This document shows, piece by piece, positions 44,482-63,583 of a stretch of DNA of 64,000 bases. The position numbers were made by a program, and so were the translations under genes. This DNA is from Halorientalis salina (GTDB taxonomy: Archaea; Halobacteriota; Halobacteria; Halobacteriales; Haloarculaceae). The stretch covers positions 558,001-622,000 of the forward strand of contig NZ_SOSC01000001.1 of NCBI RefSeq assembly GCF_005049285.1, read 5' to 3'. Position 1 is the stretch's first letter, and every line of letters begins with the position of its first letter. The notes beneath the pieces were generated by a model. The model was given only the letters and a program-made list of their open reading frames with translations, ran no database searches and was not told the origin of the DNA.

Positions 44482-46179
44482 TCAGTCGTGGACGAGCACG
44501 TCGAGCACGTCGACGCCGTCGGCATCGAGCGCCCGTTCTAACGCCGGGCCGATTTCCTCGGGCGTCTCGACGCGCTCGGCGTCGGCCCCGTGACTCTCCG
44601 CGTTTTTCACCAGGTCGACCGGCGGGTCGAAGTCCATCCCGACGTAGTCGTGGTCCTCGTCCGTGCCGCCGAAGATCGCCTGGGTGTTGTCCTTGAGGAT
44701 GCGGTAGTTGCGGTTGTCCGGGACGACGACCGTCAGGTCGAGATCGTGGCGGACGGCCGAGTAGATCGAGTGGGGGTAGTAGAGGTACGAGCCGTCGCCG
44801 ACGTAGCCGATGACCTCGCGCGGGTCCTCGCGCATCGACTCGGCCAGCGCCGCGCCGACCGAGGCCGGCAACCCGTAGCCGAGGCCGCCGCCCTTGTTCG
44901 AGACCATGCCCTCGGCCTCCATCTCCCAGCGGATGAGCAGCGGGTACTTCGAGGTCACCCCTTCGTCGACGACGTACGCGTCGGGAGCCGTCTCGCGCAT
45001 CGTGTCGACGAGTTCGTGTTTCCCGGCGCGGGTGTCCCCCTCCGGCCGTTCGTCCACGCTCATGCCCTCGATGGTGTCGGCGAGCGAGGCTTTCATCGTC
45101 TCGACCGTCTGGAGGCGCTGCTCGCGCGTCTCGGCGGCCAGGCGGTCGTCGAGTCGCTCGGTCAGTTGCTCCATGACCAGGCCGGGGTCGCCGACCACCG
45201 CGGCGTCCGCCGGCTGGTTCTTTCCGACCTGCCAGGCGTCGTCGGAGACGTGGATGCAGGTGGTGTCCGAACCCACCAGATCGTCGTCGTGGCGCAGCAG
45301 CGTCGTGTTGGTCGAACACCCGACGAACACGACCGTGTCGCTGCTCATGAGCATGCTCGCCAGCCCCTCGTCCGGCGGGATGTAGGAGATCCACTGGTCG
45401 TGCCCCGTCGGGAAGTTGACTTCGCAGGCGAGGATTTCGCCGTGAACGCGCGCACCGACGGTTTCGGCGAAATCGACGGCCGCGTCGACGGCGTCGGCCC
45501 CCGAGCGCGCGACGTGGTCGCCCAATACGAGAACCGGGTCGTCGGCCTCGACGAGCAAGTCCGTCGCGTGTTCGACCTGAGCGGGGTCGCCCCGGCCGGC
45601 ATTCGGAATCGGGCCGAGCGGTTCGATCTCCTCGGGGTCGGTCTCCTCGAGCATGGTGTCCATGGGCAACCCGAGGAAGACCGGGCCGGTCGGCGGTGTC
45701 AGGGCGACGCGGAACGCCCGCCGGAGCATCGTCGGCAGCGCCTCGACGTCGAGGACTTCGGCGGACCACTTCGTGAACTGATCGACCATGTCGACCAGAT
45801 CGCCGTACAGCAGCGGTTCCTCGTGGCGGAAGTCCCGCTCGTGGTTCCCGGCGGTGACGACCAGCGGCGTCCCGGCGAAGGAAGCGGCGTAGATGTTGCC
45901 GAGGCCGTGGGCCAGCCCTGGCGTGATGTGGAGGTTCACGACCCCGGCGGGCATCACATCGTCGTCGTGGTGGCTGTGATATCGGCGGGTGCTGGCGTAG
46001 CCCGAGGCCATCCCGACCGCGATGTCCTCGTGGAGGCCCAGGACGTACTCTAAGTCGCTATCGCTGATCGATTCCAGGACGGGGAGTTCGGTCGTGCCGG
46101 GGTTCCCGAAGACGTGTTCGACGCCGTACTGTTCCAAGGCGTCGACGAACAGGTCCGCGCCCGTGTACTCGTCTGGCAT
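44482..46179 (-). CDS. Thiamine-diphosphate 2-oxoacid decarboxylase, benzoylformate decarboxylase-like, copy 1
   Basis: 565 residues. The N-terminal PYR domain has VEHVFGNPGTTELPVLESI, the cofactor-activating Glu in LGLHEDIAVGMASGYA, and NLHITPGLAHGLGN, whose His matches the His of benzoylformate decarboxylase by motif. The C-terminal PP domain has VGYVGDGSYLYYP with the distal Asn in VVPDNRNYRILKDN binding Mg-diphosphate. Carboligase and acetolactate-synthase functions remain possible. It is convergent with the GlcD-like gene, which could give a 2-oxoacid from a 2-hydroxyacid. A close paralog is at 59437-61131. Confidence 0.88.
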   Translation of the reverse strand: MPDEYTGADLFVDALEQYGVEHVFGNPGTTELPVLESISDSDLEYVLGLHEDIAVGMASGYASTRRYHSHHDDDVMPAGVVNLHITPGLAHGLGNIYAASFAGTPLVVTAGNHERDFRHEEPLLYGDLVDMVDQFTKWSAEVLDVEALPTMLRRAFRVALTPPTGPVFLGLPMDTMLEETDPEEIEPLGPIPNAGRGDPAQVEHATDLLVEADDPVLVLGDHVARSGADAVDAAVDFAETVGARVHGEILACEVNFPTGHDQWISYIPPDEGLASMLMSSDTVVFVGCSTNTTLLRHDDDLVGSDTTCIHVSDDAWQVGKNQPADAAVVGDPGLVMEQLTERLDDRLAAETREQRLQTVETMKASLADTIEGMSVDERPEGDTRAGKHELVDTMRETAPDAYVVDEGVTSKYPLLIRWEMEAEGMVSNKGGGLGYGLPASVGAALAESMREDPREVIGYVGDGSYLYYPHSIYSAVRHDLDLTVVVPDNRNYRILKDNTQAIFGGTDEDHDYVGMDFDPPVDLVKNAESHGADAERVETPEEIGPALERALDADGVDVLDVLVHD

Positions 46180-46307
46180 GGTGATACCGTGACTGGGCCG
46201 GCCATCCCTAAAATAGTTCACCCATATCCCACAGGTTCTTCATCTGTTGTCTCTCGTACGGTGAGGGTGAAGATTGGAAAGAATATCGCCCATCCATGAC
46301 TGGCAGC

Positions 46308-48778: not shown

Positions 48779-49570
48779 TCAGGAGTGTGCGAGGTTGAGT
48801 TCGAGTTCGTTGACGATGCGGTGGAGGAGTTCGGGAACGTCCTCTTCCAGTCGTTCACCTTTCATTCGGTGGGTCGGCCCGGCAACGGCGAACGCGCCGA
48901 GGACGTAGTCGTCCGGGTTCATAATCGGAACGGCTACCGCACGGAGTCCCTTCGTGGTCTCTTCTTCGTTCAGCGCGAATCCGCGCTCCCGTATCCGTTC
49001 GAGTTCGGCGAACAGTTCGTCTTCGTCGGCGATCGTGTTCTCGGTCGCATCCGGGAGCCCGTAGGTCTCGACGATGTCATCGACCGTCTCGCGAGGTAAC
49101 TCCGCCAGAATCGCCTTCCCGGCCGCGGGCTGATGGATGTGGAACCGCTTGCCCACGCGGCCCTTCGAGAACACACCGTGACTCCCGGCCTCCCGATACA
49201 ACACGACGGCGCGGCCGTGCTCTCTGACGGTGAACTGGGCGGTTTCGCCCGATTCACGTGCGAGTTCTCGGAGTTTCTCCTGGACGAGCGTGTTCCCCTC
49301 GATCTGGCTACGGACGTGCGCACCGAGATCAAGGAAGCGGAGGCCGAGACGGTATTCGTCACCGTTCTTCGTGACGAAATCGCCGGCCCGAAGCGTGGTT
49401 AGATGCTTGTGGACGGAACTCTTCGAGAGCCCCGTCGCGTCTGCGAGTTCCGTGACCCGTGCGCCCTCGCGCTCTTTTAATTCCGTAATAATGCCGAACG
49501 ACCGTTCCAGGCTCTTCAGCGTCCGGCCGTCGACCGAGGCCCCCGTCCCGTCCGTTTGCGAGTCTTCCAT
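48779..49570 (-). CDS. IclR-family transcriptional regulator
   Basis: 263 residues. Winged helix near residues 25-85 (ELADATGLSKSSVHKHLTTL), then the IclR ligand-binding domain with LGLRFLDLGAHVR, GRAVVLYREAGSHG, HIHQPAAGKAILAEL, and the end GAFAVAGPTHRMKGERLEE. IclR proteins sense catabolic metabolites, often aromatic or dicarboxylic. It lies directly downstream of the enoyl-CoA hydratase and hydroxyacyl-CoA dehydrogenase genes, same strand, 83 bases away, and is the likely local regulator. Confidence 0.92.
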   Translation of the reverse strand: MEDSQTDGTGASVDGRTLKSLERSFGIITELKEREGARVTELADATGLSKSSVHKHLTTLRAGDFVTKNGDEYRLGLRFLDLGAHVRSQIEGNTLVQEKLRELARESGETAQFTVREHGRAVVLYREAGSHGVFSKGRVGKRFHIHQPAAGKAILAELPRETVDDIVETYGLPDATENTIADEDELFAELERIRERGFALNEEETTKGLRAVAVPIMNPDDYVLGAFAVAGPTHRMKGERLEEDVPELLHRIVNELELNLAHS

Positions 49571-49653: not shown

Positions 49654-50466
49654 CTACCGACCGGAGAACTCGGGGTCGCGGCCGTCGAGGAACGCCTCGA
49701 TGCCCTCGTCTTTGTCCTCGGTCGCGAACAGCTGGACGAACAGTTCTGACTCGTATTCGACGCCGGCATCGAGCCCCATCCGGGAGCTCTCCCGGATCGC
49801 CTTCTTCGCGAGTTCGAGCGCGACGGGGCTCTTTTCAGCCATCCCGCCAGCCAGCTCGTAGACGCGGTCGTCGATCGTGTCCTCATCGCAGACCTCGTCG
49901 ACGAGCCCGATGTCCGCCGCTTCCGTGGCGTCGATGAGCTCGCCCGAGAGGATCAGCCGCATCGCCTGTCCCTCGCCGACGAGGCGCGTGAGTCGCTGCG
50001 TGCCGCCACCGCCCGGAATCAGGCCAAGGTTGATCTCCGGCTGGCCGAGTTTCGCGCCCTCCTGGGCGATGCGCACGTCGCAGGCCTGGGCGAGTTCACA
50101 GCCGCCGCCGAGCGCGTGCCCGTTGATCCGCGCGATGACCGGGATGGAGAGTTCGTCGACGGTCTCGTAGACGCGGGGTCGCTCGCTGGCCTCGCGCTGT
50201 TCGACCAGGTCGCGGTCCTTGAACTCGGTCACGTCCGCGCCCGCGACGAACGCACCGGAGCCGTCGCCGCCGGTGAGCACCAGCACGCGCACCTCGTCGT
50301 CGGCCTCCGCGGTTGCCAGGGCGTCTTTCAGTTCCCTTCGGACCTGTTCGTTCAGTGCGTTCCGCGCGTCCGGGCGCTCGATTGCCACGGTGGCCACGCG
50401 GTCCGCGTCGTCACCGACCGTCACCGAGAGGAGGTCGTAGGACTGGTCGGCCAGTGACTCACTCAT
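49654..50466 (-). CDS. Enoyl-CoA hydratase/isomerase family protein
   Basis: 270 residues, crotonase fold. Oxyanion-hole motif SGAFVAGADVTEFKDR, GHALGGGCELAQACDVRIA, and GLIPGGGGTQRLTRL with catalytic Glu region QPEINLGL. It hydrates 2-enoyl-CoA. It overlaps the 3' end of the 3-hydroxyacyl-CoA dehydrogenase gene by 8 bases, so the two are co-translated and act in sequence. Confidence 0.92.
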   Translation of the reverse strand: MSESLADQSYDLLSVTVGDDADRVATVAIERPDARNALNEQVRRELKDALATAEADDEVRVLVLTGGDGSGAFVAGADVTEFKDRDLVEQREASERPRVYETVDELSIPVIARINGHALGGGCELAQACDVRIAQEGAKLGQPEINLGLIPGGGGTQRLTRLVGEGQAMRLILSGELIDATEAADIGLVDEVCDEDTIDDRVYELAGGMAEKSPVALELAKKAIRESSRMGLDAGVEYESELFVQLFATEDKDEGIEAFLDGRDPEFSGR

Positions 50467-51349
50467 CGTCCTCGCCCCAGTCGCCGCTCATCCCGACCTT
50501 CTCGCCGTCCTCCCAGACGTAGAACCCCTCGCCGGACTTCTTCCCGAGGTTGCCCGCGCGGACCTTCCGGCGGAGCGCCTGCGGCGGCTTGAACCGCTCG
50601 CCGAGTTCCTCGCGCAGGTGTTCGGCGATGTGGAGTCGCACGTCGAGGCCGACGTGGTCGCCGAGTTCGATGGGGCCCATCGGGTAGCCGTACCCCTTCC
50701 GCATCGCGGCGTCGATGTCCGCCGGGCTGGCGACGCCCTGCTCGACCATCCGGATGGCCTCCAGACCCAGCGCGAGGCCGAGCCGCGACGTGGCGAACCC
50801 GGCGCTGTCTCGGACGACGACGGCCTCCTTCTCGATGCCCTCGACGTAGTCGACGGCGCGGGATTCGACCGCGTCGCTGGTCTGCTCGGCGACGACGATC
50901 TCGACCAGGTCCATGATGTGGGGCGGGTTGAAGAAGTGGAGACCGACGGCCCGTTCGGGGTGGTCCAGGACGGACGCCATCTCGGTCACCGAGAGCGAGG
51001 AGGTGTTCGACGCGATGATCGCGTCGTCGGGCGCGGACGCCTCCACGTCGGCGAATACGTCCTGTTTGATGTCCATGTCCTCGGGGACCGCCTCGACGGC
51101 GAGGTCGGCGTCAGAGACTGCTTCCGAGAGGTCGGTCGTGCCGGAAATCCGGTCGAGCGTCGCGTCCATCTCGGCTTCGGTCACCTTCTCGCGCTCGACA
51201 CCCTCCGCGAGGTTCGACCGGATGCCCTCGATGCCGTCCTCGACCAGTTCCGTCTCGATGTCCCGCAGGACGACCTCGTGGCCGGCCATGGCCGACACCT
51301 GCGCGATTCCGTGCCCCATACTACCTGCTCCGAGTACAGCAACCTGCAT
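50459..51349 (-). CDS. 3-hydroxyacyl-CoA (3-hydroxybutyryl-CoA) dehydrogenase
   Basis: 296 residues. Rossmann motif VAVLGAGSMGHGIAQ at the N-terminus, catalytic His in VGLHFFNPPHIMDLVEIV, and the dimerising C-terminal domain with GYGYPMGPIELGDHVGLDV. It oxidises 3-hydroxyacyl-CoA with NAD. A single-function counterpart of the N-terminal half of the fusion at 1321. ATG 51349 matches the family start. It is divergent from the thiolase at 51452, so the promoters share about 100 bases. Confidence 0.93.
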   Translation of the reverse strand: MQVAVLGAGSMGHGIAQVSAMAGHEVVLRDIETELVEDGIEGIRSNLAEGVEREKVTEAEMDATLDRISGTTDLSEAVSDADLAVEAVPEDMDIKQDVFADVEASAPDDAIIASNTSSLSVTEMASVLDHPERAVGLHFFNPPHIMDLVEIVVAEQTSDAVESRAVDYVEGIEKEAVVVRDSAGFATSRLGLALGLEAIRMVEQGVASPADIDAAMRKGYGYPMGPIELGDHVGLDVRLHIAEHLREELGERFKPPQALRRKVRAGNLGKKSGEGFYVWEDGEKVGMSGDWGEDDE

Positions 51350-51451
51350 ACGGGGAGAAACAGACAGTGCAGTCAAAAGCGTTTCTTCCTGGCAGTGTGG
51401 GAGGGTGGCGCAAACAGAAAACGGTAAACCGCACGTAGCGCAAGCAGTGGT

Positions 51452-52621
51452 ATGCGAGACGCCTACCTCGTGGGAGCCGCGCAGACGGACTTCGGCGCGT
51501 TCCCGCGCGAATCGTATCGATCACTGTTCTCGACGGCGTTCGAGGGGGCCGTCGACTCCGTCGACGGCGAGTTCGACAGGACGGAAGTCGACGAGGCCTA
51601 CGTCGGCACCCTCGGCGTCGGCGGCCGCCAGCTTGGACTCAGCGGCCCCGCAGTCACCGAGTTCGTCGGTCTCGACGGCGCGTCGTGTACCCGCGTCGAA
51701 AACGCCTGTGCGGCCAGTGGTACCGCGCTCCGGCAGGCCACGCTCGCCATCAGGGCGGGCGCGGCCGACATCGCCATCGCCGGCGGGTTCGAGGTGATGA
51801 CCGACATGAGCGGCGACCAGACCCGCTACTGGCTCGGCGTCAGCGGCGAGACCGAGTGGGAGCGCATGTCCGGGACCACCTTCGCCGGCGTCTACGCCCA
51901 GATGGCCGACGCCCACATGGCCGAACACGGCACGACCCGGGAACACCTCTCGCGAGTCGCCGCCAAGAACCACGCCAACGGCGCGAAGAACCCCCACGCC
52001 CACCTGGGCTTCGAGTGTTCCCTCGAAGACGCGATGAATGCGCCGGGCGTCGCGGACCCGCTCAACCTCTACGACTGCTGTCCGACCTCAGACGGGGCCA
52101 GCGTCGCCATCCTGGCCAGCGAGGAGGCCGCCGAGGAACTGACCGACACCCCGATCCGCGTCGCCGGGGCCGGTCAGGCCAGTTCCCGCGTCGGCCTGTT
52201 CCAGCGACCCACGCTGACGGGCATCCCCGCGACCACCGATGCCGCCGAGCAGGCCTACGACGAGGCCGGCGTCGAGGCCGACGACATCGACTTCGCGGAG
52301 GTTCACGACTGTTTCTCCATCGCGGAACTCATGGCCTACGAGGACCTGGGCTTCTGCGAGAAGGGCGAGGCCGGGCCGTACATCACGAGCGGCACGACGG
52401 AACCGGACGGCGAGCGCCCCGTGAACCTCTCGGGCGGACTGAAATCGAAGGGGCACCCCATCGGCGCGACCGGCGGCGGGCAGGCCGTCGAGGTGTTCAA
52501 GCAACTCCGGGGTGAAGCCGGCGACCGCCAGGTTTCGGGCCTCGGCCGCGGTCTCACCCACAACGTCGGTGGATCGGGCGGAGCCGTCGCCGTCCACGTC
52601 TTCGAGGAGGGATGGGCGTGA
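51452..52621 (+). CDS. Archaeal thiolase (acetyl-CoA acetyltransferase/SCP-x type)
   Basis: 389 residues. The nucleophilic Cys is in VENACAASGTALRQA. The histidines are in AEVHDCFSIAEL and LKSKGHPIGATG. The second catalytic Cys of FadA-type thiolases is replaced by THNVGGSGG, which is usual in the archaeal/SCP-x group. It joins or cleaves acyl-CoA units. It overlaps the next gene by 10 bases, and the DUF35 gene follows, an arrangement known for the archaeal thiolase/HMG-CoA synthase complex and for thiolase-like retro-aldolases of steroid degradation. Confidence 0.9.
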   Translation: MRDAYLVGAAQTDFGAFPRESYRSLFSTAFEGAVDSVDGEFDRTEVDEAYVGTLGVGGRQLGLSGPAVTEFVGLDGASCTRVENACAASGTALRQATLAIRAGAADIAIAGGFEVMTDMSGDQTRYWLGVSGETEWERMSGTTFAGVYAQMADAHMAEHGTTREHLSRVAAKNHANGAKNPHAHLGFECSLEDAMNAPGVADPLNLYDCCPTSDGASVAILASEEAAEELTDTPIRVAGAGQASSRVGLFQRPTLTGIPATTDAAEQAYDEAGVEADDIDFAEVHDCFSIAELMAYEDLGFCEKGEAGPYITSGTTEPDGERPVNLSGGLKSKGHPIGATGGGQAVEVFKQLRGEAGDRQVSGLGRGLTHNVGGSGGAVAVHVFEEGWA

Positions 52622-53580
52622 CCGACGCCATCGAGAGCGCGGGCGCGTACACGCCGCGATACCGCATCGACGCCGACGCCTTCGCCGAGGCCTGGGGGAC
52701 CTTCGACGCGCCGGGCGTCCAGCGGAAAGCCGTCCCCGGCGCCGACGAGGACGCGGTCACGATGGCCGTCGAGGCCGCCAAGACCGCCCTCGACGGGTCG
52801 GCTCACGACCGCGAGGGCCTCGCGGGACTGGCCTTCGCCTCGACCACGCCACCCGTCGACGAGGGCGACGTGGCCGCGACCGTCGCGGAGATACTCGGAC
52901 TCGACAACACCGTCGAAACGGCGGCGTTCACCCAGTCGACCGGCGCTGGCGGGAGCGCCATCCGCTGGGGGACAGAGGTCCCCGACGGCCCGACGCTCGT
53001 CGTGGCCGCGGACGCCCCGCTCGGCGACCCCGACGACGCCCTCGACCACGCCGCCGGCGCGGGGGCCGTCGCCTTCCTGCTGGCCGAGGACGGCCCAGTC
53101 GAGATCAGAGAGACGGCGACCTATACAGAGGAGTTCCCGGGGACGCGGTTCCGCGAACGCGGCGCCGACGCCGTCGACTCCTACGACGCCACCGCCTACG
53201 AGCGGGACGCCTACGGGACCGTCGTCGCGGGCGCGGTCGACGCGCTGGACGAGGCCCCACCGGCCATCGCGCCAACGGCACCGAACGGCAAGCGGCCCTA
53301 CCGCGCCGCCCGGCGACTCGACGGCGACGCCGACGTGTACGAGACGGCCGGCGACCTCGGGGACACGGGCGCGGCCGGTCCACTGTTCGGCCTCGCTGCT
53401 GCCTGGGCCGACGGCGAAGACGACGTGGCGCTCGTGGCTTTCGGCGACGGGGCTAGCGCGGTCGCCGTCCGCGTCGTCGGGACCCTCGACGCCTCCTGGG
53501 ACCGGGAGACCGTCGACGTGTCCTACGCGGAGTACGCGCGCAAGCGTGGCCACGTCGTCGAGACGGGAGGTGACGACTGA
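52612..53580 (+). CDS. HMG-CoA synthase-like protein lacking the catalytic cysteine and histidine
   Basis: 322 residues with the thiolase-fold layout of archaeal HMG-CoA synthase: AGAYTPRYRID near the start, an internal repeat, VVVAADAPLGDPDDALDHAAGAGAVA, and the APNGKRPYRAAR segment. In active archaeal enzymes a Cys sits near the middle of the first half and a His precedes PNGK. This protein has no Cys anywhere, and reads AFTQSTGAGGSA and PTAPNGKRP at these places. It is probably not a synthase; a structural partner linking the thiolase to the DUF35 protein is likely. It overlaps the thiolase gene upstream and shares one base with the DUF35 gene. Confidence 0.75.
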   Translation: MGVTDAIESAGAYTPRYRIDADAFAEAWGTFDAPGVQRKAVPGADEDAVTMAVEAAKTALDGSAHDREGLAGLAFASTTPPVDEGDVAATVAEILGLDNTVETAAFTQSTGAGGSAIRWGTEVPDGPTLVVAADAPLGDPDDALDHAAGAGAVAFLLAEDGPVEIRETATYTEEFPGTRFRERGADAVDSYDATAYERDAYGTVVAGAVDALDEAPPAIAPTAPNGKRPYRAARRLDGDADVYETAGDLGDTGAAGPLFGLAAAWADGEDDVALVAFGDGASAVAVRVVGTLDASWDRETVDVSYAEYARKRGHVVETGGDD

Positions 53581-53996
53581 TGGGAGCGTACCTGAGCGTC
53601 CCGTCGTGGTGGCGGAACCTCGACGGCCGGTATCGGCTCGAACTCGGCCAGTGTCCGGACTGTGGCGCACACACGTTCCCCGCCGAGGGGGCCTGCGTCG
53701 AGTGCAACTCCACCGCGGACTTCGAGACCGTCGAACCCGAGGGGACCGGCGAAGTCGTCGCAGGGACGACCATCACGGGCGGAGCGCCGCCGGAGTTCGC
53801 CGACCTCCAGACCCAGGAAGGGTCGTTCGGCGTGGCCGTCGTCGAACTCGACGAGGGCGCTCGCGTGCCCGGCATGCTGACCGACTGCGACCCGACCACA
53901 GTCGAGCGGGGCGACCGCGTCGAGGCGGTCGTCCGACGGATCTACGAACAGGAGGGCATCGTCCGGTACGGTGTCAAGTTCCGACCGATGGACTGA
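53580..53996 (+). CDS. DUF35 Zn-ribbon/OB-fold acyl-CoA-associated protein
   Basis: 138 residues. Zinc ribbon CPDCGAHTFPAEGACVEC at residues about 24-42, then an OB-fold (GTGEVVAGTTITGGAPPEF to IVRYGVKFRPMD). DUF35 proteins bind CoA esters and hold thiolase and HMG-CoA-synthase-like proteins together, or act with thiolase-like lyases. The stop of the upstream gene overlaps its first base (TGATG), so they are coupled. Confidence 0.88.
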   Translation: MGAYLSVPSWWRNLDGRYRLELGQCPDCGAHTFPAEGACVECNSTADFETVEPEGTGEVVAGTTITGGAPPEFADLQTQEGSFGVAVVELDEGARVPGMLTDCDPTTVERGDRVEAVVRRIYEQEGIVRYGVKFRPMD

Positions 53997-54072: not shown

Positions 54073-55236
54073 ATGCTCGATTACGTGGGCCTAGAGAGCG
54101 ATTTGACCGAAGAAGAGCGCATGGTGCGCGACACCGCGCGCGAGTTCGTCGAAGAGAAGGTCAAACCCGACGTCGGACAGCACTGGATCGACGGCACGTT
54201 CCCGAAAGACCTCATCCCCGAGATGGGCGAACTGGGATTCTACGCGCCGAACCTCGACGGGTACGGTCTTCCGAACCTGAGCGAGACAGCGTACGGCCTG
54301 CTCATGCAGGAACTGGAAGCCGGCGACTCGGGGCTCCGTTCGATGGCGTCAGTGCAGGGCGCGCTCGTGATGTACCCGATTCACGCCTTCGGCAGCGAGG
54401 CACAGAAAGACGAGTGGCTCCCCGCACTCGGCGCCGGCGAGGCCGTCGGCTGTTTCGGCCTCACCGAACCCGAACACGGCTCGAACCCCGCGGCGATGGA
54501 GACCCACGCCGAGGCAGACGGTGACGGCTACGTGCTCAACGGCGCGAAGACCTGGATCACGAACTCCCCCATCAGCGACGTGGCGGTCGTCTGGGCGAAG
54601 GATCGCTCGACCGACGGCAACCCCGTCCGTGGCTTCCTCGTCGAGACCGACCGCGACGGCGTCGGCACGAACAAGATCGACGAGAAACTCTCGCTCCGGG
54701 CCTCGATCACCGGCGAGATCAGCCTCAACGACGTGCACGTCCCCGAGGAGAACGTCCTGCCCGGCGTCGAAGGGATGAAAGGACCGCTGTCCTGTCTCAG
54801 CCAGGCGCGCTACGGGATCGCCTGGGGCGCGGTCGGCGCGGCGATGGACTGTTTCCAGGTGGCCAAAGATTACGCCACCGACCGCGAGCAGTTCGGCAAG
54901 CCCATCGGCGGCTTCCAGCTCCAGCAGGAGAAACTCGCCGAGATGGCGACCCAGATCACGAACGCCCAACTGCTGGCCCACCGGATGGCCGAGTTGAAGG
55001 AGCGGGGCGACCTCGAACCCCAGCACATCTCGATGGGCAAGCGCAACAACGTCCGGATGGCTCGCGAGCAGTCCCGGGTCGCCCGCGAGATGCTCGGCGG
55101 CAACGGCATCACGGCCGACTACTCGCCGATGCGTCACGTGACCAACCTCGAAACCGTCTACACCTACGAGGGGACCCACGACATCCACTCGCTGATCATC
55201 GGCCACGACATCACCGGCATCCCGGCCTTCGAATAG
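54073..55236 (+). CDS. Glutaryl-CoA dehydrogenase-like acyl-CoA dehydrogenase
   Basis: 387 residues. Besides the general fold it has features of the glutaryl-CoA branch: GLRSMASVQGALVMYPIHAFG (the Arg that in glutaryl-CoA dehydrogenase contacts the distal carboxylate), CFGLTEPEHGSNPAAM, and the end MRHVTNLETVYTYEGTHD with catalytic Glu, then LIIGHDITGIPAF. Such enzymes oxidise and decarboxylate glutaryl-CoA, or only oxidise it. It is directly followed by a thiolase with no space, consistent with crotonyl-CoA going on to acetyl-CoA. ATG 54073 is used; the earlier frame at 53971 overlaps the DUF35 gene. Confidence 0.85.
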   Translation: MLDYVGLESDLTEEERMVRDTAREFVEEKVKPDVGQHWIDGTFPKDLIPEMGELGFYAPNLDGYGLPNLSETAYGLLMQELEAGDSGLRSMASVQGALVMYPIHAFGSEAQKDEWLPALGAGEAVGCFGLTEPEHGSNPAAMETHAEADGDGYVLNGAKTWITNSPISDVAVVWAKDRSTDGNPVRGFLVETDRDGVGTNKIDEKLSLRASITGEISLNDVHVPEENVLPGVEGMKGPLSCLSQARYGIAWGAVGAAMDCFQVAKDYATDREQFGKPIGGFQLQQEKLAEMATQITNAQLLAHRMAELKERGDLEPQHISMGKRNNVRMAREQSRVAREMLGGNGITADYSPMRHVTNLETVYTYEGTHDIHSLIIGHDITGIPAFE

Positions 55237-56376
55237 ATGACGGCGGACACCGATCCCGTCGTCGTCGCCGCTCGCCGAACCCCCCAGGGCAAGCAGGACG
55301 GCGTCTACGCCGACGTTCGGAGCGAGGACCTGGCCGTGCCCCTCGTCGACGAGTTGCTGGCCGAGACCGACCTCCACGGCGACGACGTCGACGACCTCCA
55401 GTGGGGCTGTGCCAAGCAGGTCAAAGAGCAGGGGAACAACCTCGCGCGAGTCATCGCCCTCCTCTCCGACCTCGGTGAGAACGTCCCGGGCACGACGATC
55501 GACCGCCTCTGTGGCTCCTCGGCCCAGGCCATCGCGGCCGCCTCGGACGCCATCCGGGCGGGTCAGCGCGACTGTCTCATCGCGGGCGGCGTCGAGAACA
55601 TGTCCCGGGTGCAGCGCGACCAGGGCATCGACTCCTACCCCGGCATCCGCGAGCGCTACGACACCGACGCGCTCCAGATGGGCATGACCGCCGAGGCCGT
55701 CGCCGAGCGCTTCGACGTCGCTCGTGAGGCCCAAGACGAGTACGGCGCTCGCTCTCAGCAACGCGCCGTCGCGGCCACCGAGGAGGGACGCTTCGACGAG
55801 GAGATCCTCCCCATCGACACCGGCGAGGAAGTCGTCACCGAAGACGAGGGGCTCCGCCCCGGCACGACCGCCGAGAAGTTGGGTGACCTCCCCACGGTGT
55901 TCAAAGAAGACGGCACCGTCACGCCCGGCACCGCCAGTCAGATCTCCGACGGCGCGGCCGCCGTCATGCTGACCTCCCGGAAGTTCGCCGAGGAGCGCGG
56001 CCTGGAGATCATGGCCGAGGTCGGCGCCCACAACGTCGCGGGCGTCGACCCCGAGATCATGGGCATCGGTCCGGTGCCCGCCGTCCGCGGACTCATGGAC
56101 CGCGCCGGAACGACCATCGACGACTACGACCTGGTCGAACTCAACGAGGCCTTCGCGAGTCAGACGCTGTATTGTCAGCGAGAACTCGGCATCGACGACG
56201 AGAGATTCAACGTCAACGGCGGGGCCATCGCCATCGGCCACCCGCTCGGGGCGTCCGGCGCGCGCCTGCCCGTGACGCTCATCCACGAGATGCACCGCCG
56301 CGACGCCGACCGCGGGCTCTCGACGATGTGTATCGGCTACGGCCAGGGCATCGCTATCGAGTTCCGGGTTCCCTGA
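55237..56376 (+). CDS. Acetyl-CoA C-acyltransferase (FadA-type thiolase)
   Basis: 379 residues with a complete catalytic set: nucleophile Cys in [16 protein letters not shown], His in [17 protein letters not shown], and the second Cys in [17 protein letters not shown]. It cleaves 3-ketoacyl-CoA with CoA. The gene starts at the first base after the stop of the glutaryl-CoA dehydrogenase-like gene. The window thus has two thiolases of different subfamilies within 4 kb. Its insertion loop region begins at [20 protein letters not shown]. Confidence 0.93.
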
Positions 56377-56527: not shown

Positions 56528-57667
56528 CTACAGGAGGCGGTCGGAGATGATGTTCTTCTGGATCTCGCTGGTGCCCTCGTAGATCTTCGTGATCCGGGCG
56601 TCCCGGTAGTAGCGCTCGACCGGGTGATCGGAGACGTAGCCGGCACCGCCGTGGACCTGGATGGCCTCGTCGGCCACGTCGACGGCGTGTTCCGAGGCGA
56701 ACAGCTTCGCCATGCTGGCGAACTTCGCGGCGAGGTCGTCGTCGCCGTTCTCGACGGCCGAGGCCGCGCGGTAGGTCAGCGACCGCGCGGCTTCGACGTT
56801 CGTCGCCATCTCGGCGAGTTTGTGCTCGATGGCCTGGAACTCGCCGATCTTCTGGCCGAACTGCTCACGCTCGCCGGCGTAGTCCAGCGCCGCGTCGAGG
56901 GCCGCCTGTGCGGCACCGACAGCCTGGGACGCGACACGGGTGCGACCGTGAGCGAAGAAGTCCATCAGCTGGTAGAACCCTTTGTCGACCTCGCCGATGA
57001 CGTTCTCCTCGGGGACGCGCACGTCGTCGACGATGACCTCCGCGAGGTCCGAGGCGCGGATGCCGAGCTTGTTGTCGATCTTCTCGGTCTTGAACCCGTC
57101 CAGATCAGTGGGCACGAGGAACGCCGTGATGCCGCGGTGACCCTCGTCGGGTGAGGTCTTGGTCATCATGACGCCCACGTCGGCCACGGTGCCGTTCGTG
57201 ATCCACATCTTGTTGCCGTTGATCACGTACTCGTCGCCGTCCTTCTCCGCGTGCGTCTCGATGCCGGCGACGTTCGAGCCGTGGGCCGGCTCCGAAATGG
57301 CGGAATAGGAGGCCGATTCCCCGTTGGCGATCTTTGGCAGCCACTCCTCTTTCATCCACTCGTCACCGTACTCGACGATCATGTTCGTCCCGAACCCGGC
57401 GCTGCCGACGGCGCTCCCGATGCCGGGGTCGGCCCGCCAGAGTTCCTCGGTCACGAGAACCGCTTCGAGCAGGTCCATCCCCGCCCCGCCGTACTCGACC
57501 GGGATGTGCGGTGCGACGAAATCGAACTCCGCGGCCTGTTTCCGGAGGGCCTCGGGATAGCTGCCTTCCTCGTCGTGTTCCTTCGCAACCGGTGCGATCT
57601 CGTTCTCGCCGAACTCGCGGACGGCCTGCCGAATAGCGCGGTGCTCGTCCGATAGTTGAAACGCCAT
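56528..57667 (-). CDS. Acyl-CoA dehydrogenase, fourth short-chain-type copy
   Basis: 379 residues. Motifs: [56 protein letters not shown], and catalytic Glu in YEGTSEIQKNIISDRLL. It is clearly more distant from the three tandem copies than they are from each other. ATG 57667 gives the family start. It is convergent with the thiolase gene across 150 bases, in which I see no gene. Confidence 0.93.
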   Translation of the reverse strand: MAFQLSDEHRAIRQAVREFGENEIAPVAKEHDEEGSYPEALRKQAAEFDFVAPHIPVEYGGAGMDLLEAVLVTEELWRADPGIGSAVGSAGFGTNMIVEYGDEWMKEEWLPKIANGESASYSAISEPAHGSNVAGIETHAEKDGDEYVINGNKMWITNGTVADVGVMMTKTSPDEGHRGITAFLVPTDLDGFKTEKIDNKLGIRASDLAEVIVDDVRVPEENVIGEVDKGFYQLMDFFAHGRTRVASQAVGAAQAALDAALDYAGEREQFGQKIGEFQAIEHKLAEMATNVEAARSLTYRAASAVENGDDDLAAKFASMAKLFASEHAVDVADEAIQVHGGAGYVSDHPVERYYRDARITKIYEGTSEIQKNIISDRLL

Positions 57668-57783
57668 ACAACGCAATTAGGATTGGTCTGTAAAATATAT
57701 TCTGATAGTTCCCAAACCCGTTAGCTGATGGTTAGCAACGCGTGAAAAATGGTAACCGAGTTGTCCGTTCCAACCCGGGCCGT

Positions 57784-59352
57784 TCAGCTCTCTTTCCGGA
57801 GTTCGTACTTCTGAACCTTCCCGGTTGTCGTCCGGGGGAGTTCCTCGCGGAACTCGACCTGGCGGGGGTGTTTGTACTCAGCGATGTTGTCGAGCGCGTA
57901 CTGTTTGATCTCCTCGGCGGTCACGTCCTCGCCGGGTTCGTACCCTGGCGCGGGGACGATGAGCGCTTTGACCGTCTCGCCACGGCGGTCGTCTTCGATG
58001 CCGACCACGGCGGCGTCGGCGACCGCCTCGTGTTCGTAGAGGAGTTCCTCGACCTCACGCGGGTAGACGTTGTAGCCGCCGGTGACGATCATGTGTTTCT
58101 CGCGGTCGACGACGAAGAAGAAGTCGTCCTCGTCCCAGTAGCCCAGGTCCTCGGTGTGGAACCAGCGCTTGCCACCTTCCTCGGTGAAGGCCGCCTCGTT
58201 CGCTCCCGGAAGCTCGTAGTAGCCCTGCATGACGTTCGGCCCGGAGACGACGAGTTCGCCGACGATCTCGTCTAAGTCCATCTCCTCTTCGTCGACCGGT
58301 CCCTCCGCGACACGGGGCATCTCCTCGAAGTCCTGGTCGACGATCTTGGCGTCGACCGCCTCGATCGGCTGGCCGATACTCCCCTTGCGCCGGGCATCGG
58401 GGCGGTTCGCGTGCGTGACCGGACTCGTCTCGGTCAGCCCGTAGCCCTCGAACAGTTCGACGCCGAACAGGTCCTCGAAGGTCTCTAAGACCTCCATCGG
58501 GAGACTCGACCCGCCGGAGTTGACGAACCGGAGACTGGAGAGGTCCCGCGACTCGGCGTCGGGCTGGGTGATCATGTCGTTGAACATCGCCGGGACGCCG
58601 TACATTACGGTGATCTCTTCGTTCTCGATCAGGTCGAAGACGACCTGCGGGTCCCACTCGGCGACCGGGTAGTACGTCGCGCCCGTGAACACGGCCGCGT
58701 TCATGACCGCGGACATCCCGTAGATGTGGAACAGCGGAAGCGTCCCGACCAGCTTGTCCTCCGGTCCGATCGGCGGGTCGAGCAGCGTCATGTTCGACCG
58801 GGTGTTCGATGCGAGGTTGTGGTGGGAGAGGAGCACGCCCTTCGGCGTCCCCGTCGTCCCCGAGGTGTATGGCTGGACGGCGGTGTCGTCGTCTGCCCGC
58901 TCGACGAGGGGCAGCGTCTCGTCGGCCAGGAACGCCTCGAAGTCGGTCGCGCTCTCGGCGGGTTCGCCGACGCTGACGACGGTGTTCACGTCGGTGTCGG
59001 ACTGGACCTCCGCGACCGCCTCGGCGTTCGCCGAGAGCGTGACGACGGCCTTCGCGCCACTGTCCGAGAGGAGGTGGCTGATCTCCCGGGCCTTGTACTG
59101 CGGGTTCATCGGGACGACGATGCCACCGGCGCGCAGCGTTCCGTAGAAGGCGGTCACGAACTGCGGGAGGTTCGGCAGGTAAATCCCGACGCGGTCGCCC
59201 TCGCCGATGCCGCGCTCGTCGAGTGCAGCGGCGAACTGACCGGTTCGCTCCCAGAGCGTCTCGTACGTCTGTTCGTTTCCGTTGAAGGAAATAGCAACCG
59301 ACTCGGGCGTCTCCGATACCGTATCCGCGACTTCCGTAACGAGATTCGTCAT
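57784..59352 (-). CDS. Long-chain-fatty-acid/aromatic-acid CoA ligase (AMP-forming)
   Basis: 522 residues of the acyl-adenylate superfamily. P-loop-like motif PYTSGTTGTPKGVLLSHHN, GYGLTETSPVTHANR, YWDEDDFFFVVDREKHMIVTGG, YPREVEELLYEHEAV, and the C-terminal lysine motif PRTTTGKVQKYEL. It activates a carboxylic acid to its CoA ester with ATP, the entry step for the cluster. Chain-length or aromatic preference cannot be fixed. It has 116 bases to the acyl-CoA dehydrogenase downstream and 84 to the ThDP enzyme upstream, all on one strand. Confidence 0.9.
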   Translation of the reverse strand: MTNLVTEVADTVSETPESVAISFNGNEQTYETLWERTGQFAAALDERGIGEGDRVGIYLPNLPQFVTAFYGTLRAGGIVVPMNPQYKAREISHLLSDSGAKAVVTLSANAEAVAEVQSDTDVNTVVSVGEPAESATDFEAFLADETLPLVERADDDTAVQPYTSGTTGTPKGVLLSHHNLASNTRSNMTLLDPPIGPEDKLVGTLPLFHIYGMSAVMNAAVFTGATYYPVAEWDPQVVFDLIENEEITVMYGVPAMFNDMITQPDAESRDLSSLRFVNSGGSSLPMEVLETFEDLFGVELFEGYGLTETSPVTHANRPDARRKGSIGQPIEAVDAKIVDQDFEEMPRVAEGPVDEEEMDLDEIVGELVVSGPNVMQGYYELPGANEAAFTEEGGKRWFHTEDLGYWDEDDFFFVVDREKHMIVTGGYNVYPREVEELLYEHEAVADAAVVGIEDDRRGETVKALIVPAPGYEPGEDVTAEEIKQYALDNIAEYKHPRQVEFREELPRTTTGKVQKYELRKES

Positions 59353-59436: not shown

Positions 59437-61131
59437 TCAGTCGTGGACGAGCACGTCGAGTACGTCGACGCCGTCAGCATCGAGTGCGCGCTCTAACGCC
59501 GGTTCGATAGCCTCGTGCGTCTCGACGCGCTCGGCGTCGGCCCCGTGACTCTCCGCGTTTTTCACCAGGTCGACCGGCGGGTCGAAGTCCATCCCGACGT
59601 AGTCGTGGTCGGCGTCCGAGCCGCCGAATATCTTCTGTGTGTTGTCCTTGAGGATGCGGTAGTTGCGGTTGTCCGGGACGACGACGGTCAGATCTAGATC
59701 GTGGCGGACGGCGGAGTATATCGACTGCGGGTAGTAGAGGTACGAGCCGTCGCCGACGTAGCCGACGACGGTCCGGGGCTGGTCGTGCATCGACTCGGCC
59801 AGCGCCGCACCGACCGAGGCTGGCAGCCCGTAGCCCAGGCCGCCGCCCTTGTTCGAGAGGAACTGTTCCGGGGCCATCGGCCAGCGCAACAGCATGGGAT
59901 ACTTCGCGGTGATGCCCTCGTCGACGACGTACGCGTCGGGAGCCACGTCACGCAAGGCGTCGACGAGTTCGGCTTTCGAGGCGCGGGTGTCGCCCTCCGG
60001 GGCCTCGTCCTCGCTGATGCGTCGCAGCGTCCCGCTGAGCGAGTCCTTGGTCTCGCGAACGGCGTCGAGACGACGGTCGCGTTCGGCCTCGGACAGGCGG
60101 TCGTCGAGGCGTTCGGCCAGTTGTTCCATGACCAAACCGGAGTCGCCGACGACGGCGGCGTCCGCCGGCTGGTTCTTCCCGACCTGCCAGGCGTCGTCGG
60201 AGACGTGGATACAGGTCGTATCCGATCCAACGAGTTCCTCGTCGTGGCGCAGCAGCGTCGTGTTGGTCGAACAGCCGGCGAAGACGATGGTGTCCGTGTC
60301 CATCAGCGAGCGGCCGAGCCCCTCGTCCGGCGGCATGTGGGAGACCCACTGCTCGTGGTCGCCAGGGAAGTTGACTTCGGAGGCGAGCATCTCGCCGTGG
60401 ACGCGCGCGCCGACTGTCTCGGCGAAGTCGACGGTCGCCTCGACGGCGTCGACCCCTGCACGGGCGATGTGGTCGCCGACCACCAGGAGGGGTTCGTCGG
60501 CCTCGACGAGCAAGTCCGTCGCCTGTTCGACCTGGGCGGGGTCGCCCCGGCCAGCGTTGGGGATGGGTCCCAGCGGTTCGATCTCGTCGGGGTCAATCTC
60601 CTCGAGCATCGTGTCCATGGGCAATCCGAGGAAGACCGGGCCGGTCGGGGGCGTCAGGGCGACGCGGAAGGCCCGCCGGAGCATCGTCGGCAGTGCCTCG
60701 ACGTCGAGGACCTCGTCCGACCACTTCGTGAACTGGTCGACCATCTCCGCGAGTTCGCCGTGCAACAGCGGTTCCTCGTGGCGGAAGTCCCGCTCGTGGT
60801 TCCCGGCGGTGACGACCAGCGGCGTCCCAGTGAAGGACGCCCCGTAGATGTTACCGAGGCCGTGGGCCAGCCCCGGCGTGATGTGGAGGTTCACGACGCC
60901 CGCAGGCATCACGTCGTCGTGGTGGCTGTGATACCGGCGGGTACTGGCGTAGCCCGAGGCCATCCCGACCGCGATGTCCTCGTGGAGGCCCAGGACGTAC
61001 TCCAGGTCGCTGTCGCTGATCGACTCTAAGACTGGGAGTTCGGTCGTGCCGGGGTTGCCGAACACGTGTTCGACGCCGTACTGGTCCAGCGCGTCGACGA
61101 ACAGGTCGGCGCCGGTATAGCTGTCGGTCAT
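59437..61131 (-). CDS. Thiamine-diphosphate 2-oxoacid decarboxylase, benzoylformate decarboxylase-like, copy 2
   Basis: 564 residues, with the same motifs as copy 1: HVFGNPGTTELPVLESI, LHEDIAVGMASGYAST, NLHITPGLAHGLGNIYG, and VGYVGDGSYLYYP. It differs from copy 1 by one Asp codon in the HSHHDD run and in scattered positions, mostly in the middle domain (about residues 340-400). The longer frame to 61293 adds an unrelated Cys/Arg-rich leader and is rejected. It is flanked by the acyl-CoA ligase and the TRAP transporter, so a 2-oxoacid brought in by the transporter is a possible substrate. Confidence 0.88.
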   Translation of the reverse strand: MTDSYTGADLFVDALDQYGVEHVFGNPGTTELPVLESISDSDLEYVLGLHEDIAVGMASGYASTRRYHSHHDDVMPAGVVNLHITPGLAHGLGNIYGASFTGTPLVVTAGNHERDFRHEEPLLHGELAEMVDQFTKWSDEVLDVEALPTMLRRAFRVALTPPTGPVFLGLPMDTMLEEIDPDEIEPLGPIPNAGRGDPAQVEQATDLLVEADEPLLVVGDHIARAGVDAVEATVDFAETVGARVHGEMLASEVNFPGDHEQWVSHMPPDEGLGRSLMDTDTIVFAGCSTNTTLLRHDEELVGSDTTCIHVSDDAWQVGKNQPADAAVVGDSGLVMEQLAERLDDRLSEAERDRRLDAVRETKDSLSGTLRRISEDEAPEGDTRASKAELVDALRDVAPDAYVVDEGITAKYPMLLRWPMAPEQFLSNKGGGLGYGLPASVGAALAESMHDQPRTVVGYVGDGSYLYYPQSIYSAVRHDLDLTVVVPDNRNYRILKDNTQKIFGGSDADHDYVGMDFDPPVDLVKNAESHGADAERVETHEAIEPALERALDADGVDVLDVLVHD

Positions 61132-61210
61132 GCGGATATCCGTACTGCGTCGGCCCGGGTCAAAACAGTTGCATTCTGCGACCGAACGGAAACCGCGATG
61201 GCACAGCGAC

Positions 61211-63583
61211 TTACCGCTCTCGAAGCTCTGCGGCCGGCGTGACCAGCTTCGGGAGGCGGTCGAGTTGCACCAGTGCCAGCCCGGCGAGTGCAATCGCCGC
61301 AGTGGCTATCTGGAGCATCGTCGCGGTGCTCCCGCCGATGTACGTCGACAGCGCGGGGCTGTACATCGCGCCGAACGACAGGACGAGATACGCGAGTCGG
61401 TGAGGGATCCCGAGCACGTGTCGACCGTCGAAGCCGATGGTGACGGCCGTCAGCGCGACGACGCCGACGAACACGCACGCCGTCGCGATGGGTGTTCCCG
61501 TCACCGTCCAGGTGACGAGGCTCTCGTTGGCCACGAGCGCGTAGGGGATGAGAAATCCGGCAGCGCCGATCCGCATGGCCTGTTTGGCCGAGAGCAGGAA
61601 CCCGCTGTCCGCGATCCGCGAGGCGACGGCGACGCCGACCGCGACCGGCGGCGTGATCGCCGACAGCATCGCGAAGTAGAACACGAACAGGTGGGCCGTG
61701 ATCTCGGTGACGCCCAGTTCCTGGAGCGGCGCGGTCAGCAGCGCCGCGACCAGCACGTACGCGGCCGGCGTCGGCATGCCGAGACCGAACAGGATGCTCG
61801 TGATCATCGCCAGGACGAGCGCGACCAGCAGGACGCCGCCCGCCAGCGCGACCATCCGGAGGCTGATCTTCCCGGAGAGGCCGGTCTGGGTGAGCATCTT
61901 GATGATGACGCCCATCGCGGCCAGCACGCCCACGAGCGGGGCCATGTCGAGGGCCCCCTTCTTGAACCCGCGCAGGGTCTTCACCGTCGTGACGAACCAC
62001 TGCTTGGCGACGGTGAGGCCGACGAACTGCCCGGACGCCGCGTCCGAACCGTCCGTGCCGGTGACCCACGCCGCTTCGGGTTCGTCGCTGAGGAACAGCA
62101 GTGCGGTGTCACGGACGTACATCACGGCGATCAGCGTCAGCACGGTGTAGAAGCCGGTCGCCAGCGCGGCGAGTTGCATCACTGCGAGGGCGTACACCAG
62201 CACTGCCATGGGAATCAGGAAGTAGCGACCCTGGAAGAACTGTTCGAGGCTCGCTGCGAACTCGTCGCCAGCGCTTCCGTCGGTCGACTGGACGGCTGCC
62301 TGCAGGAACCGCGCCGCGAGGAGCGCGACCATCGTCGCACCGCCCGACACGAGAAGCGACAAGCCGGCGACGGTCCGCGTTGCGTAGAAGGCACCGACGC
62401 CCAGCAGGGCGTAGCCCACGACGATCAGCGCCTCTCGACTGAACAGGACTTCGGCGATGCCGCCGGTGTCCTCGCCGCGGTCGCTCGTCCAGCCGTACCG
62501 GAGGACCGCGAACTGGACGGCCACGCCGACGCTGAAGTAGAACAACAGCGCCGGGATGAGGCCGGCCTGGATGATGCGGACGTAGGGAACGCCGATGAAG
62601 TCGGCCATCAGGAACGCGGCGACGCCCATGACCGGGGGCATGATCTGTCCCCCGCTGGAGGCGACGCTCTCGATGGCGGCCGTGTAATCTTTCCGGACGC
62701 CCTGTTCTTTCATCATCGGGATGGTGAAGCTCCCGGTCGTCGCGGCGTTGGCCGCCGCGCTCCCGGTGATCGACCCCATCGCCATCGAGGAGATCACCGC
62801 GACGTGGACGATGCCACTGCGGAGTCGTTTCCCGAGTTGTCCGCTCAGACTCAGGATGACATCGAGGATGCCGTAGGCCCGAGCCAGCCCGGCGAACATG
62901 ATGAAGATGGCGACGTACTTCGCGCCGGCCTGGGTGATGAAGCCGTACGCACCGGAGTTGTTGATCTGCGTCGCGCCGTACAGTGCGATGTCACGCGTGC
63001 TCTGTCCGGTGTGCTGTAAGAAGCCGGGGAACACGGAGCCGAACAGCGCGTAGAGGACGGACGCGACGGCCACGAGCGCGATCGACCAGCCGTAGGCGCG
63101 TCGCGTCGCATCGATGACCATCGCGACGACGATGATCCCGAGCGTGAGTTCGAGGTTCGTGTACCCGAGAATGATCTTCGCGTCGCCGGTCAACCGCTCG
63201 TACCCGGTCACGAAGAAATAGCCCGTGCCCGCCGCCGCGACGGCCGTGCCCAGGCACAGGACGGTATCCAGACGAACGTAGACGCGTTGGATGCGTTTGC
63301 TGAGCCTGCTGGCGATCGGCCCGGTGGCCACGGCGGTCCCCTTCGAGATCCCTTCGTACGCGAGAAACAGGTAGTACAGGGTCAGCCCGAAGTGCATGAA
63401 GAGGATGCTGTGGATGATCTGTGAGAACGGGCGCTGCCACGCGTAGTAAACGGTGTACGCCGTGAGCGCCACAGCCAGCAGTGCAACGAGCGGGAACAGG
63501 AGTTGCTCCGGGAGCGACCGCTCGGCGAAGGCGGCCCTGAGATCGCTGGGCGACGTGGGTTGTTCGTCGATTGTCTCAGTCAT
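61211..63583 (-). CDS. TAXI-type TRAP transporter fused permease (DctQM-like)
   Basis: 790 residues, about 18 to 20 membrane helices, combining the small (Q) and large (M) TRAP subunits. N-terminal helices SILFMHFGLTLYYLFLAYEG precede the M domain, which has GLARAYGILDVILSLSG, MAMGSITGSAAANAATTGSF, SGGQIMPPVMGVAAFLMADF and SILFGLGMPTPAAYVLVAAL. Sodium-driven carboxylate uptake is the family role. It starts 19 bases after the stop of the solute-binding gene, so both form one operon. Confidence 0.92.
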   Translation of the reverse strand: MTETIDEQPTSPSDLRAAFAERSLPEQLLFPLVALLAVALTAYTVYYAWQRPFSQIIHSILFMHFGLTLYYLFLAYEGISKGTAVATGPIASRLSKRIQRVYVRLDTVLCLGTAVAAAGTGYFFVTGYERLTGDAKIILGYTNLELTLGIIVVAMVIDATRRAYGWSIALVAVASVLYALFGSVFPGFLQHTGQSTRDIALYGATQINNSGAYGFITQAGAKYVAIFIMFAGLARAYGILDVILSLSGQLGKRLRSGIVHVAVISSMAMGSITGSAAANAATTGSFTIPMMKEQGVRKDYTAAIESVASSGGQIMPPVMGVAAFLMADFIGVPYVRIIQAGLIPALLFYFSVGVAVQFAVLRYGWTSDRGEDTGGIAEVLFSREALIVVGYALLGVGAFYATRTVAGLSLLVSGGATMVALLAARFLQAAVQSTDGSAGDEFAASLEQFFQGRYFLIPMAVLVYALAVMQLAALATGFYTVLTLIAVMYVRDTALLFLSDEPEAAWVTGTDGSDAASGQFVGLTVAKQWFVTTVKTLRGFKKGALDMAPLVGVLAAMGVIIKMLTQTGLSGKISLRMVALAGGVLLVALVLAMITSILFGLGMPTPAAYVLVAALLTAPLQELGVTEITAHLFVFYFAMLSAITPPVAVGVAVASRIADSGFLLSAKQAMRIGAAGFLIPYALVANESLVTWTVTGTPIATACVFVGVVALTAVTIGFDGRHVLGIPHRLAYLVLSFGAMYSPALSTYIGGSTATMLQIATAAIALAGLALVQLDRLPKLVTPAAELRER

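Follow-up and report, generated by a model that had tools for sequence, protein, structure and literature searches.

In a 64,000-nucleotide stretch of the Halorientalis salina genome (contig NZ_SOSC01000001.1, positions 558,001 to 622,000; hereafter the window), three overlapping genes encode a thiolase, a protein resembling 3-hydroxy-3-methylglutaryl-CoA (HMG-CoA) synthase (HMGS) and a DUF35 protein. The HMGS-like protein has lost the three residues (Glu, Cys and His) with which intact archaeal HMGS performs catalysis, the thiolase keeps its catalytic residues, and a separate, intact HMGS is encoded elsewhere in the same genome. We propose that the trio is probably a catabolic thiolase of three subunits, in which the HMGS-like subunit serves as a dead scaffold or as a partner that helps to form the coenzyme A (CoA) pocket. 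The open reading frames (ORFs) lie on the forward strand where the initial annotation of this DNA had placed them, with overlaps of 10 bases and 1 base (Table 1).

Profile alignments put Thr78, Thr110 and Thr222 of the 322-residue HMGS-like protein at the positions of the catalytic Glu, Cys and His, respectively. The initial annotation had pointed to the absence of Cys and to a Thr in place of the expected His, and both observations hold: the protein contains 0 Cys, and the ORF translation reads PTAPNGK, with its Thr (Thr222) at the His position. The loss of the Glu is an addition to that earlier reading. Four of the 12 window proteins counted, the HMGS-like protein among them, have no Cys, and freedom from Cys is therefore not remarkable alone; the position-specific loss is what counts. 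The PNGK motif, which had been noted as kept, is indeed present but is no hallmark: of the 13 members of the subclade that contains the window protein, 3 have the Lys. Gln had appeared at the Cys position in a single-sequence phmmer alignment, a candidate rejected when the profile alignments shifted the match by two residues to Thr110; a Cys-to-Gln change would recall KSQ or chain-length-factor proteins. Scores against HMGS models are far under their cut-offs (TIGR00748, 74.7 bits versus 353.35; PRK04262, 119.2 versus 244), and no Pfam match over cut-off was found for the protein. PF08541 finds nothing at threshold in the H. salina genome, the HMGS-like protein itself matching that profile only at E 0.082.

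The HMGS-like protein is nevertheless predicted to have the HMGS/thiolase-superfamily fold. Its structure model (pLDDT 72.7, pTM 0.79, built from 6 sequences) has 6et9_I and 6esq_I, chains of the thiolase/HMGS/DUF35 complex of M. thermolithotrophicus, as its top Foldseek rows, and aligns with 6esq_I at Z 31.5 over 310 residues with a root-mean-square deviation of 3.5. The Z scores are 31.0 to PhlA of 5m3k, 31.6 to a MucABC chain and 32.0 to a 9skh chain. In the thiolase/HMGS fold the nucleophile sits directly before a helix, and a helix of the model begins at residue 111. That location of the nucleophile agrees with PMC6392133.

Sequence comparison identifies the M. thermolithotrophicus complex as the best match in the PDB for each of the three proteins. 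The window thiolase exceeds the cut-off of PRK06064 (427 bits versus 420), possesses Cys86, His285, Cys287 and His335, and matches 6esq_A at E 5.3e-80, 7pxp_C at E 5.2e-49 and PhlC at E 1.6e-30; it scores 185.1 bits against the BbsB model, whose cut-off is 750. The four catalytic columns are conserved in every covered thiolase of the loci with a dead HMGS-like gene (164, 166, 166 and 164 sequences, respectively), and the HDCF motif is found by pattern in 164 of the 166 thiolases adjacent to such genes. This motif bears on the retro-aldol reaction that the initial annotation had considered, as in steroid side-chain degradation by Ltp2 or Sal with DUF35. A thiolase fold accompanied by a DUF35 protein with ChsH2-type domains would suit an aldolase, and a fused relative in Novosphingobium sp. 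ES2-1 lies near genes for a P450, a FadD3-type ligase and lipid transfer. HDCF, however, is described as the motif of SCP-2 thiolases, whereas the steroid aldolases Ltp2 and Sal carry YDHF or YDCY (PMC12329534). The retro-aldol option is disfavored because the aldolase's catalytic Tyr is His in the window thiolase, which also retains the nucleophile Cys and the His of GHP, and we consider it very unlikely.

A survey of related sequences does not uphold the view that the lost active site is a peculiarity of one locus. The window HMGS-like protein was matched in at least 184 of the 292 Halobacteria genomes sampled, and only part of the matching loci was retrieved for alignment. Five matched genomes were not counted as having a family member, which applies to the PaaK comparison below as well: G021, G218 and G285, which have an intact archaeal HMGS, G145, whose match is a true halo-type HMGS, and G002, whose weak match of 81 residues was judged likewise. 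Fragments and DUF35-only stretches, in which the three columns are missing, were dropped, and the 225 rows were reduced to 208 by keeping one of each set of identical cores. Among these 208 distinct sequences, 168 are without both the Glu and the Cys (hereafter dead) and the remaining 40 have Glu, Cys and His. In addition to 139 sequences of group B and 13 of group A (which includes the window protein), the dead set contains a further pair, 2 proteobacterial sequences and 12 from archaea elsewhere in the phylum. DUF35 is fused to the HMGS-like part in 137 of the 139 group B sequences and in none of the 13 of group A, as judged by phmmer match to the window DUF35 protein. The same test picks up DUF35 in only 4 of the 14 non-haloarchaeal members, and two of these members checked by Pfam both carry DUF35 domains. 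Plasmid loci were kept outside the 208, although four of them entered the trees; a scan of named genomes gave 5 loci. Fused HMGS-like/DUF35-type proteins also lie by a thiolase in catabolic plasmid clusters of Novosphingobium, Diaphorobacter and Variovorax (L126, L127, L236 and L237), among which the catalytic residues were counted for L126 and L127. In two genomes of a single genus, another dead HMGS-like gene, not fused and with a separate thiolase downstream of it, lies about 2 to 4 kb from a group A trio (L096:6997-8115, reverse strand; L106:11918-12949, forward strand).

A thiolase gene adjoins 166 of the 168 dead HMGS-like genes, and in the two exceptions (L166 and L207) the contig breaks off on the side where a thiolase would be expected. 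It is upstream in 150 of the 166, the window included, and downstream in 16. Among the 40 intact HMGS genes, 33 have an adjacent thiolase, which is downstream in all 33, and 7 have none by the proximity rule used. Intact loci thus run HMGS-thiolase and the window runs thiolase-HMGS; the adjacency of the three genes is as the initial annotation described it, but their order departs from that of these intact archaeal loci, contrary to the match it had proposed. Five of the intact HMGS (L091-L095) are in open frames of 456-526 amino acids with no adjacent thiolase by the same rule, and the N-terminal extension of L091 resembles a zinc-ribbon DUF35 by appearance. At 4 of the 33 intact loci (L035, L037, L038 and L078) Asp replaces the nucleophile Cys of the neighboring thiolase and HDS[FY] replaces its HDCF motif, a mirror image in which the thiolase looks dead and the archaeal HMGS looks alive. 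Three of these four are in the Halobacteriales genomes G218, G285 and G021, which are without halo-type HMGS.

Measured against two relatives, the ratio of nonsynonymous to synonymous substitution rates (dN/dS) of the thiolase gene is 0.16 and 0.17, that of the DUF35 gene 0.28 and 0.30 and that of the HMGS-like gene 0.37 and 0.32. Constraint thus acts on the HMGS-like gene as well, at roughly half the strength seen for the thiolase gene. An alternative reading gives the HMGS-like subunit a new activity of its own, exerted through Thr110 or another residue. Thr occupies the Cys position in 148 of the 168 dead sequences (from residue triples), in the model directly before the helix and so at the predicted nucleophile site of the fold, and many motifs are conserved across the 154 haloarchaeal sequences. 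Yet Pro, Ala or Trp stands there in some haloarchaeal members (Pro in 2 of the 13 of the window's subclade) and Ile, Leu, Met, Phe, Val, Ala or Gln in other members; the Glu is always lost, the His is lost in 153 of 168, and the HMGS-like gene evolves faster than the thiolase gene. A new activity of this kind appears rather improbable.

The initial annotation had recommended a survey for a separate HMGS. The H. salina genome encodes a halo-type HMGS (NF041302, 865.2 bits, over the cut-off of 800) with E86, C123 and H247; the window HMGS-like protein scores 17.7 bits against the same model. Identical Glu, Cys and His residues are found in all 30 further halo-type HMGS loci inspected, which are those of the best matches. 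Halo-type HMGS is over cut-off in 285 of the 292 Halobacteria, and four more genomes have strong matches under it (E 1e-169 to 1e-197). In G021, G218 and G285 the halo-type match is weak, and an archaeal HMGS with Glu, Cys and His is present. By family match, every one of the 292 genomes consequently has an HMGS candidate besides the dead protein; the catalytic residues were checked in the H. salina genome, in the 30 further loci and in G021, G218 and G285.

With halo-type HMGS in 289 of the 292 genomes (over cut-off or strong) and an intact archaeal HMGS in the other three, the dead protein might be imagined as a decaying archaeal HMGS copy, redundant beside the bacterial-type enzyme of haloarchaea. 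Speaking against decay, nearly all collected members have an open frame and a linked thiolase gene, both pairs compared show purifying selection, and dead members also occur outside haloarchaea. An origin of the haloarchaeal dead family within the archaeal HMGS lineage of the three early Halobacteriales (G021, G218 and G285) was also considered; a tree that joins the two was rejected (p-AU 0.0009), so that the family did not arise by recent decay in that lineage. Decay is accordingly hardly credible.

A first tree contained 92 rows, for which the 139 group B sequences were cut to 41, with 2 plasmid loci added, and the intact sequences from 30 to 6; a more careful, unrooted tree of 67 rows was made after further thinning of group B and removal of the long-branched L039. 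In the 67-row tree the dead sequences form one side of a branch either without PhlA (support 100/96) or together with it (support 98/85), while PhlA, L090 and L126 are on long branches and their placement is unsure. The simplest reading of this topology is that the active site may have been lost once, after which the dead family spread.

The position of PhlA bears on the possibility that the trio is a PhlABC-like acyltransferase, in which an acyl group would be loaded onto the thiolase Cys and then transferred to a non-CoA carbon nucleophile, for instance a phenol, with the HMGS-like protein as a PhlA-like dead partner. PhlA is the only characterized dead partner in the tree and falls on the dead-family side (98/85), it is without the same Cys and Glu according to the sections of PMC6392133 that describe it, and chains of PhlABC, MucABC and 6esq score alike in fold against the model of the HMGS-like protein. 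Its long branch makes this placement uncertain, however, and the window thiolase matches 6esq_A far better than PhlC. The beta-oxidation neighbors and a gene order unlike phlACB (order from PMC6392133) also disagree with an acyltransferase, which we regard as unlikely.

The neighborhood of the trio (Table 1) bears out the catabolic setting that the initial annotation had recognized, with an IclR-type regulator, a hydratase, dehydrogenases, a classical thiolase, a ligase, thiamine pyrophosphate (TPP) enzymes and a tripartite ATP-independent periplasmic (TRAP) permease around it. TPP enzymes at window positions 44482-46221 and 59437-61293 flank the cluster; they are alike by eye, and both are nearest to benzoylformate decarboxylase, under cut-off.

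Table 1. The thiolase/HMGS-like/DUF35 trio, its catalytic positions and the surrounding genes (window coordinates)
Feature	Position	Strand	Basis
Thiolase subunit, 389 aa, archaeal acetyl-CoA acetyltransferase type	51452..52621	+	Thiolase_C_1 E 5e-45; PRK06064; 6esq_A E 5.3e-80
Thiolase Cys86 codon, nucleophile position (NACAASG)	51707..51709	+	column kept in 164/164 covered dead-HMGS loci
Thiolase HDCF motif (His285, Cys287)	52304..52315	+	both columns kept in 166/166 dead-HMGS loci with adjacent thiolase
Thiolase His335 codon (GHPIG)	52454..52456	+	kept in 164/164 covered
HMGS-like subunit, 322 aa, catalytic Glu, Cys and His all lost	52612..53580	+	HMGS matches under cut-off; fold of model; Thr/Thr/Thr
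Thr78 codon, catalytic Glu position	52843..52845	+	profile alignment
Thr110 codon, catalytic Cys position, directly before model helix 111-121	52939..52941	+	profile alignment, model
Thr222 codon, catalytic His position (PTAPNGK)	53275..53277	+	profile alignment
DUF35 subunit, 138 aa, ChsH2-type zinc ribbon and OB fold	53580..53996	+	zf-ChsH2 and OB_ChsH2_C over cut-offs; 6esq_E E 8.5e-17
3-Hydroxyacyl-CoA dehydrogenase, divergent neighbor	50459..51376	-	family match; homologs near part of the trio's relatives
Enoyl-CoA hydratase	49654..50466	-	best NCBIfam PaaF, 273.3 bits, under cut-off 371
IclR-type regulator	48779..49570	-	PcaR/PcaU family, 151.7 bits, under cut-off 284.75
Acyl-CoA dehydrogenase, after the trio	54076..55236	+	family matches
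Second, classical thiolase (FadA/PcaF-like)	55237..56376	+	TIGR01930, 445.8 bits, over cut-off
Acyl-CoA dehydrogenase	56528..57676	-	family match
Acyl-CoA ligase	57784..59352	-	family match
TPP enzyme, benzoylformate-decarboxylase-like	59437..61293	-	match under cut-off
TRAP fused permease	61211..63583	-	family match

Relatives of the trio are found in varied surroundings. In Halorientalis litorea the trio is flanked on one side by a TRAP system that includes a TPP enzyme and on the other by a pair of CoA-transferase genes. Of the 11 group A loci covered widely, 4 have a TRAP permease of this type beside the thiolase and 5 have CoA-transferase sequence (one as a single subunit, one 4 kb off); the remaining ones, including the closest relative (L119), have neither. 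Acyl-CoA or beta-oxidation genes are neighbors in 9 of the 10 annotated haloarchaeal plasmid regions viewed, and in 3 of these 10 (Haloferax mediterranei, Haloarcula sinaiiensis and Halorubrum ezzemoulense) the fused form is inside a phenylacetate degradation (paa) cluster with PaaK. PaaK is over cut-off in 115 of the 292 genomes, and a family member is present in 113 of these 115 versus 66 of the 177 others (Fisher p 1.3e-30). The short stretches retrieved include a PaaK gene of 50% identity or higher in 32 of the 108 group B loci that measure 5.5 kb or more. Another haloarchaeal subgroup (L232 and L234; Haladaptatus, Halalkalicoccus) has two UbiD decarboxylases beside it, together with proteins whose annotation refers to phenylacetic acid catabolism.

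Returning to the three-subunit catabolic thiolase, we infer that the proteins form a complex in which the thiolase subunit would do the chemistry, that is, CoA-dependent cleavage (or formation) of a 3-oxoacyl-CoA via Cys86, His285, Cys287 and His335. The DUF35 subunit would join the other two and close the CoA site, and the HMGS-like pseudoenzyme would be a structural partner that completes the complex, probably with a shared CoA or acyl cavity, and would make no HMG-CoA. As a loose suggestion, the substrate in the window may derive from an acid that enters through the TRAP system and undergoes beta-oxidation, and many fused relatives could, equally loosely, act on an intermediate of phenylacetate degradation. 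The repurposed complex of the initial annotation thus stands as to the HMGS fold without catalytic residues, the intact thiolase, the catabolic cluster and the separate HMGS; its retro-aldol option does not.

Several observations weigh against the proposed catabolic thiolase. The model of the HMGS-like protein, with so few sequences behind it, is of moderate confidence. The His is kept in 15 of the 168 dead sequences, and the Thr commonly found at the Cys position may conceivably be used in catalysis. Only one acyl-CoA dehydrogenase was found besides the trio around L119 by the queries used, and in the tenth plasmid region the group A trio of Halobaculum lipolyticum adjoins thiamine genes. The PaaK association statistic ignores relatedness and genome size. 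PaaK over cut-off was not found in the window genome, and the substrate of the window cluster may consequently be different. A classical thiolase is also present in the window and in the three paa clusters, so that the trio may not do the obvious thiolysis step.

A wider proposal is offered tentatively: that the pseudo-HMGS family of haloarchaea, other archaea of the phylum and some Proteobacteria could be an obligatory subunit of catabolic thiolases, whose dead site would hold the CoA/acyl arm and set the substrate range. What was a site for channeling toward mevalonate might thereby have become a specificity chamber for aromatic-derived 3-oxoacyl-CoAs, including those of the haloarchaeal phenylacetate pathway. 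The retention of a dead HMGS beside so many thiolases makes the role of such a subunit testable, the copy of Haloferax mediterranei, in the gene pair E6P09_RS16140/RS16145, being in a paa cluster, and it provides a candidate thiolase for phenylacetate degradation in haloarchaea.

The dead-HMGS thiolase set is widespread and apparently unnamed, since the window protein and the three relatives scanned all stay under the cut-offs of the NCBIfam HMGS-type models. The records of the plasmids label these proteins as hypothetical, zinc-ribbon, OB-fold, ACP synthase or HMG-CoA synthase, and some members are therefore likely misnamed as mevalonate enzymes. Among the literature matches listed, none mentions a dead HMGS from haloarchaea in its title or in the opening of its abstract, and the subscription literature may hold a prior description. 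An inactive HMGS-like partner as such has already been published for PhlABC, and an 'inactive' partner of the PhlA type was noted as early as 2010 (PMC2954200).

Compared with known systems, the trio is closest to the M. thermolithotrophicus complex (6esq/6et9), with which it shares the retained thiolase residues and the HMGS-like fold of the model, in addition to the best PDB match of each protein. It differs in the replacement of the HMGS Glu, Cys and His by Thr and in its catabolic neighbors; the thiolase-HMGS order also sets it apart from the archaeal thiolase/HMGS/DUF35 loci surveyed with an intact HMGS, the M. thermolithotrophicus locus aside. The BbsAB benzoylsuccinyl-CoA thiolase (7PXP) is likewise a catabolic thiolase with a DUF35 partner, but no HMGS-like subunit is mentioned for it in the available portion of PMC12329534, and the window thiolase is far under the BbsB cut-off. 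The Ltp2-ChsH2 and Sal-Shy steroid aldolases combine a thiolase fold with DUF35 and differ from the window in the YDHF or YDCY motif. PhlABC (5M3K), whose relatives MucABC (PDB 9VBO) and the 9SKH acyltransferase have HMGS-like parts judged alike by fold and not by residues, shares with the trio an active-looking thiolase, a DUF35 protein and an HMGS-like partner without the Cys and Glu. It is unlike the trio in that PhlA is outside the dead family on a long branch, the genes are ordered phlACB, the thiolase is much less similar and the setting is biosynthetic. In PhlA the Cys and Glu positions are Gly115 and Cys83, and all three proteins are required although only PhlC residues act on the substrate (PMC6392133). 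By analogy with PhlABC, the trio most likely works with its HMGS-like part in a structural or pocket-forming role.

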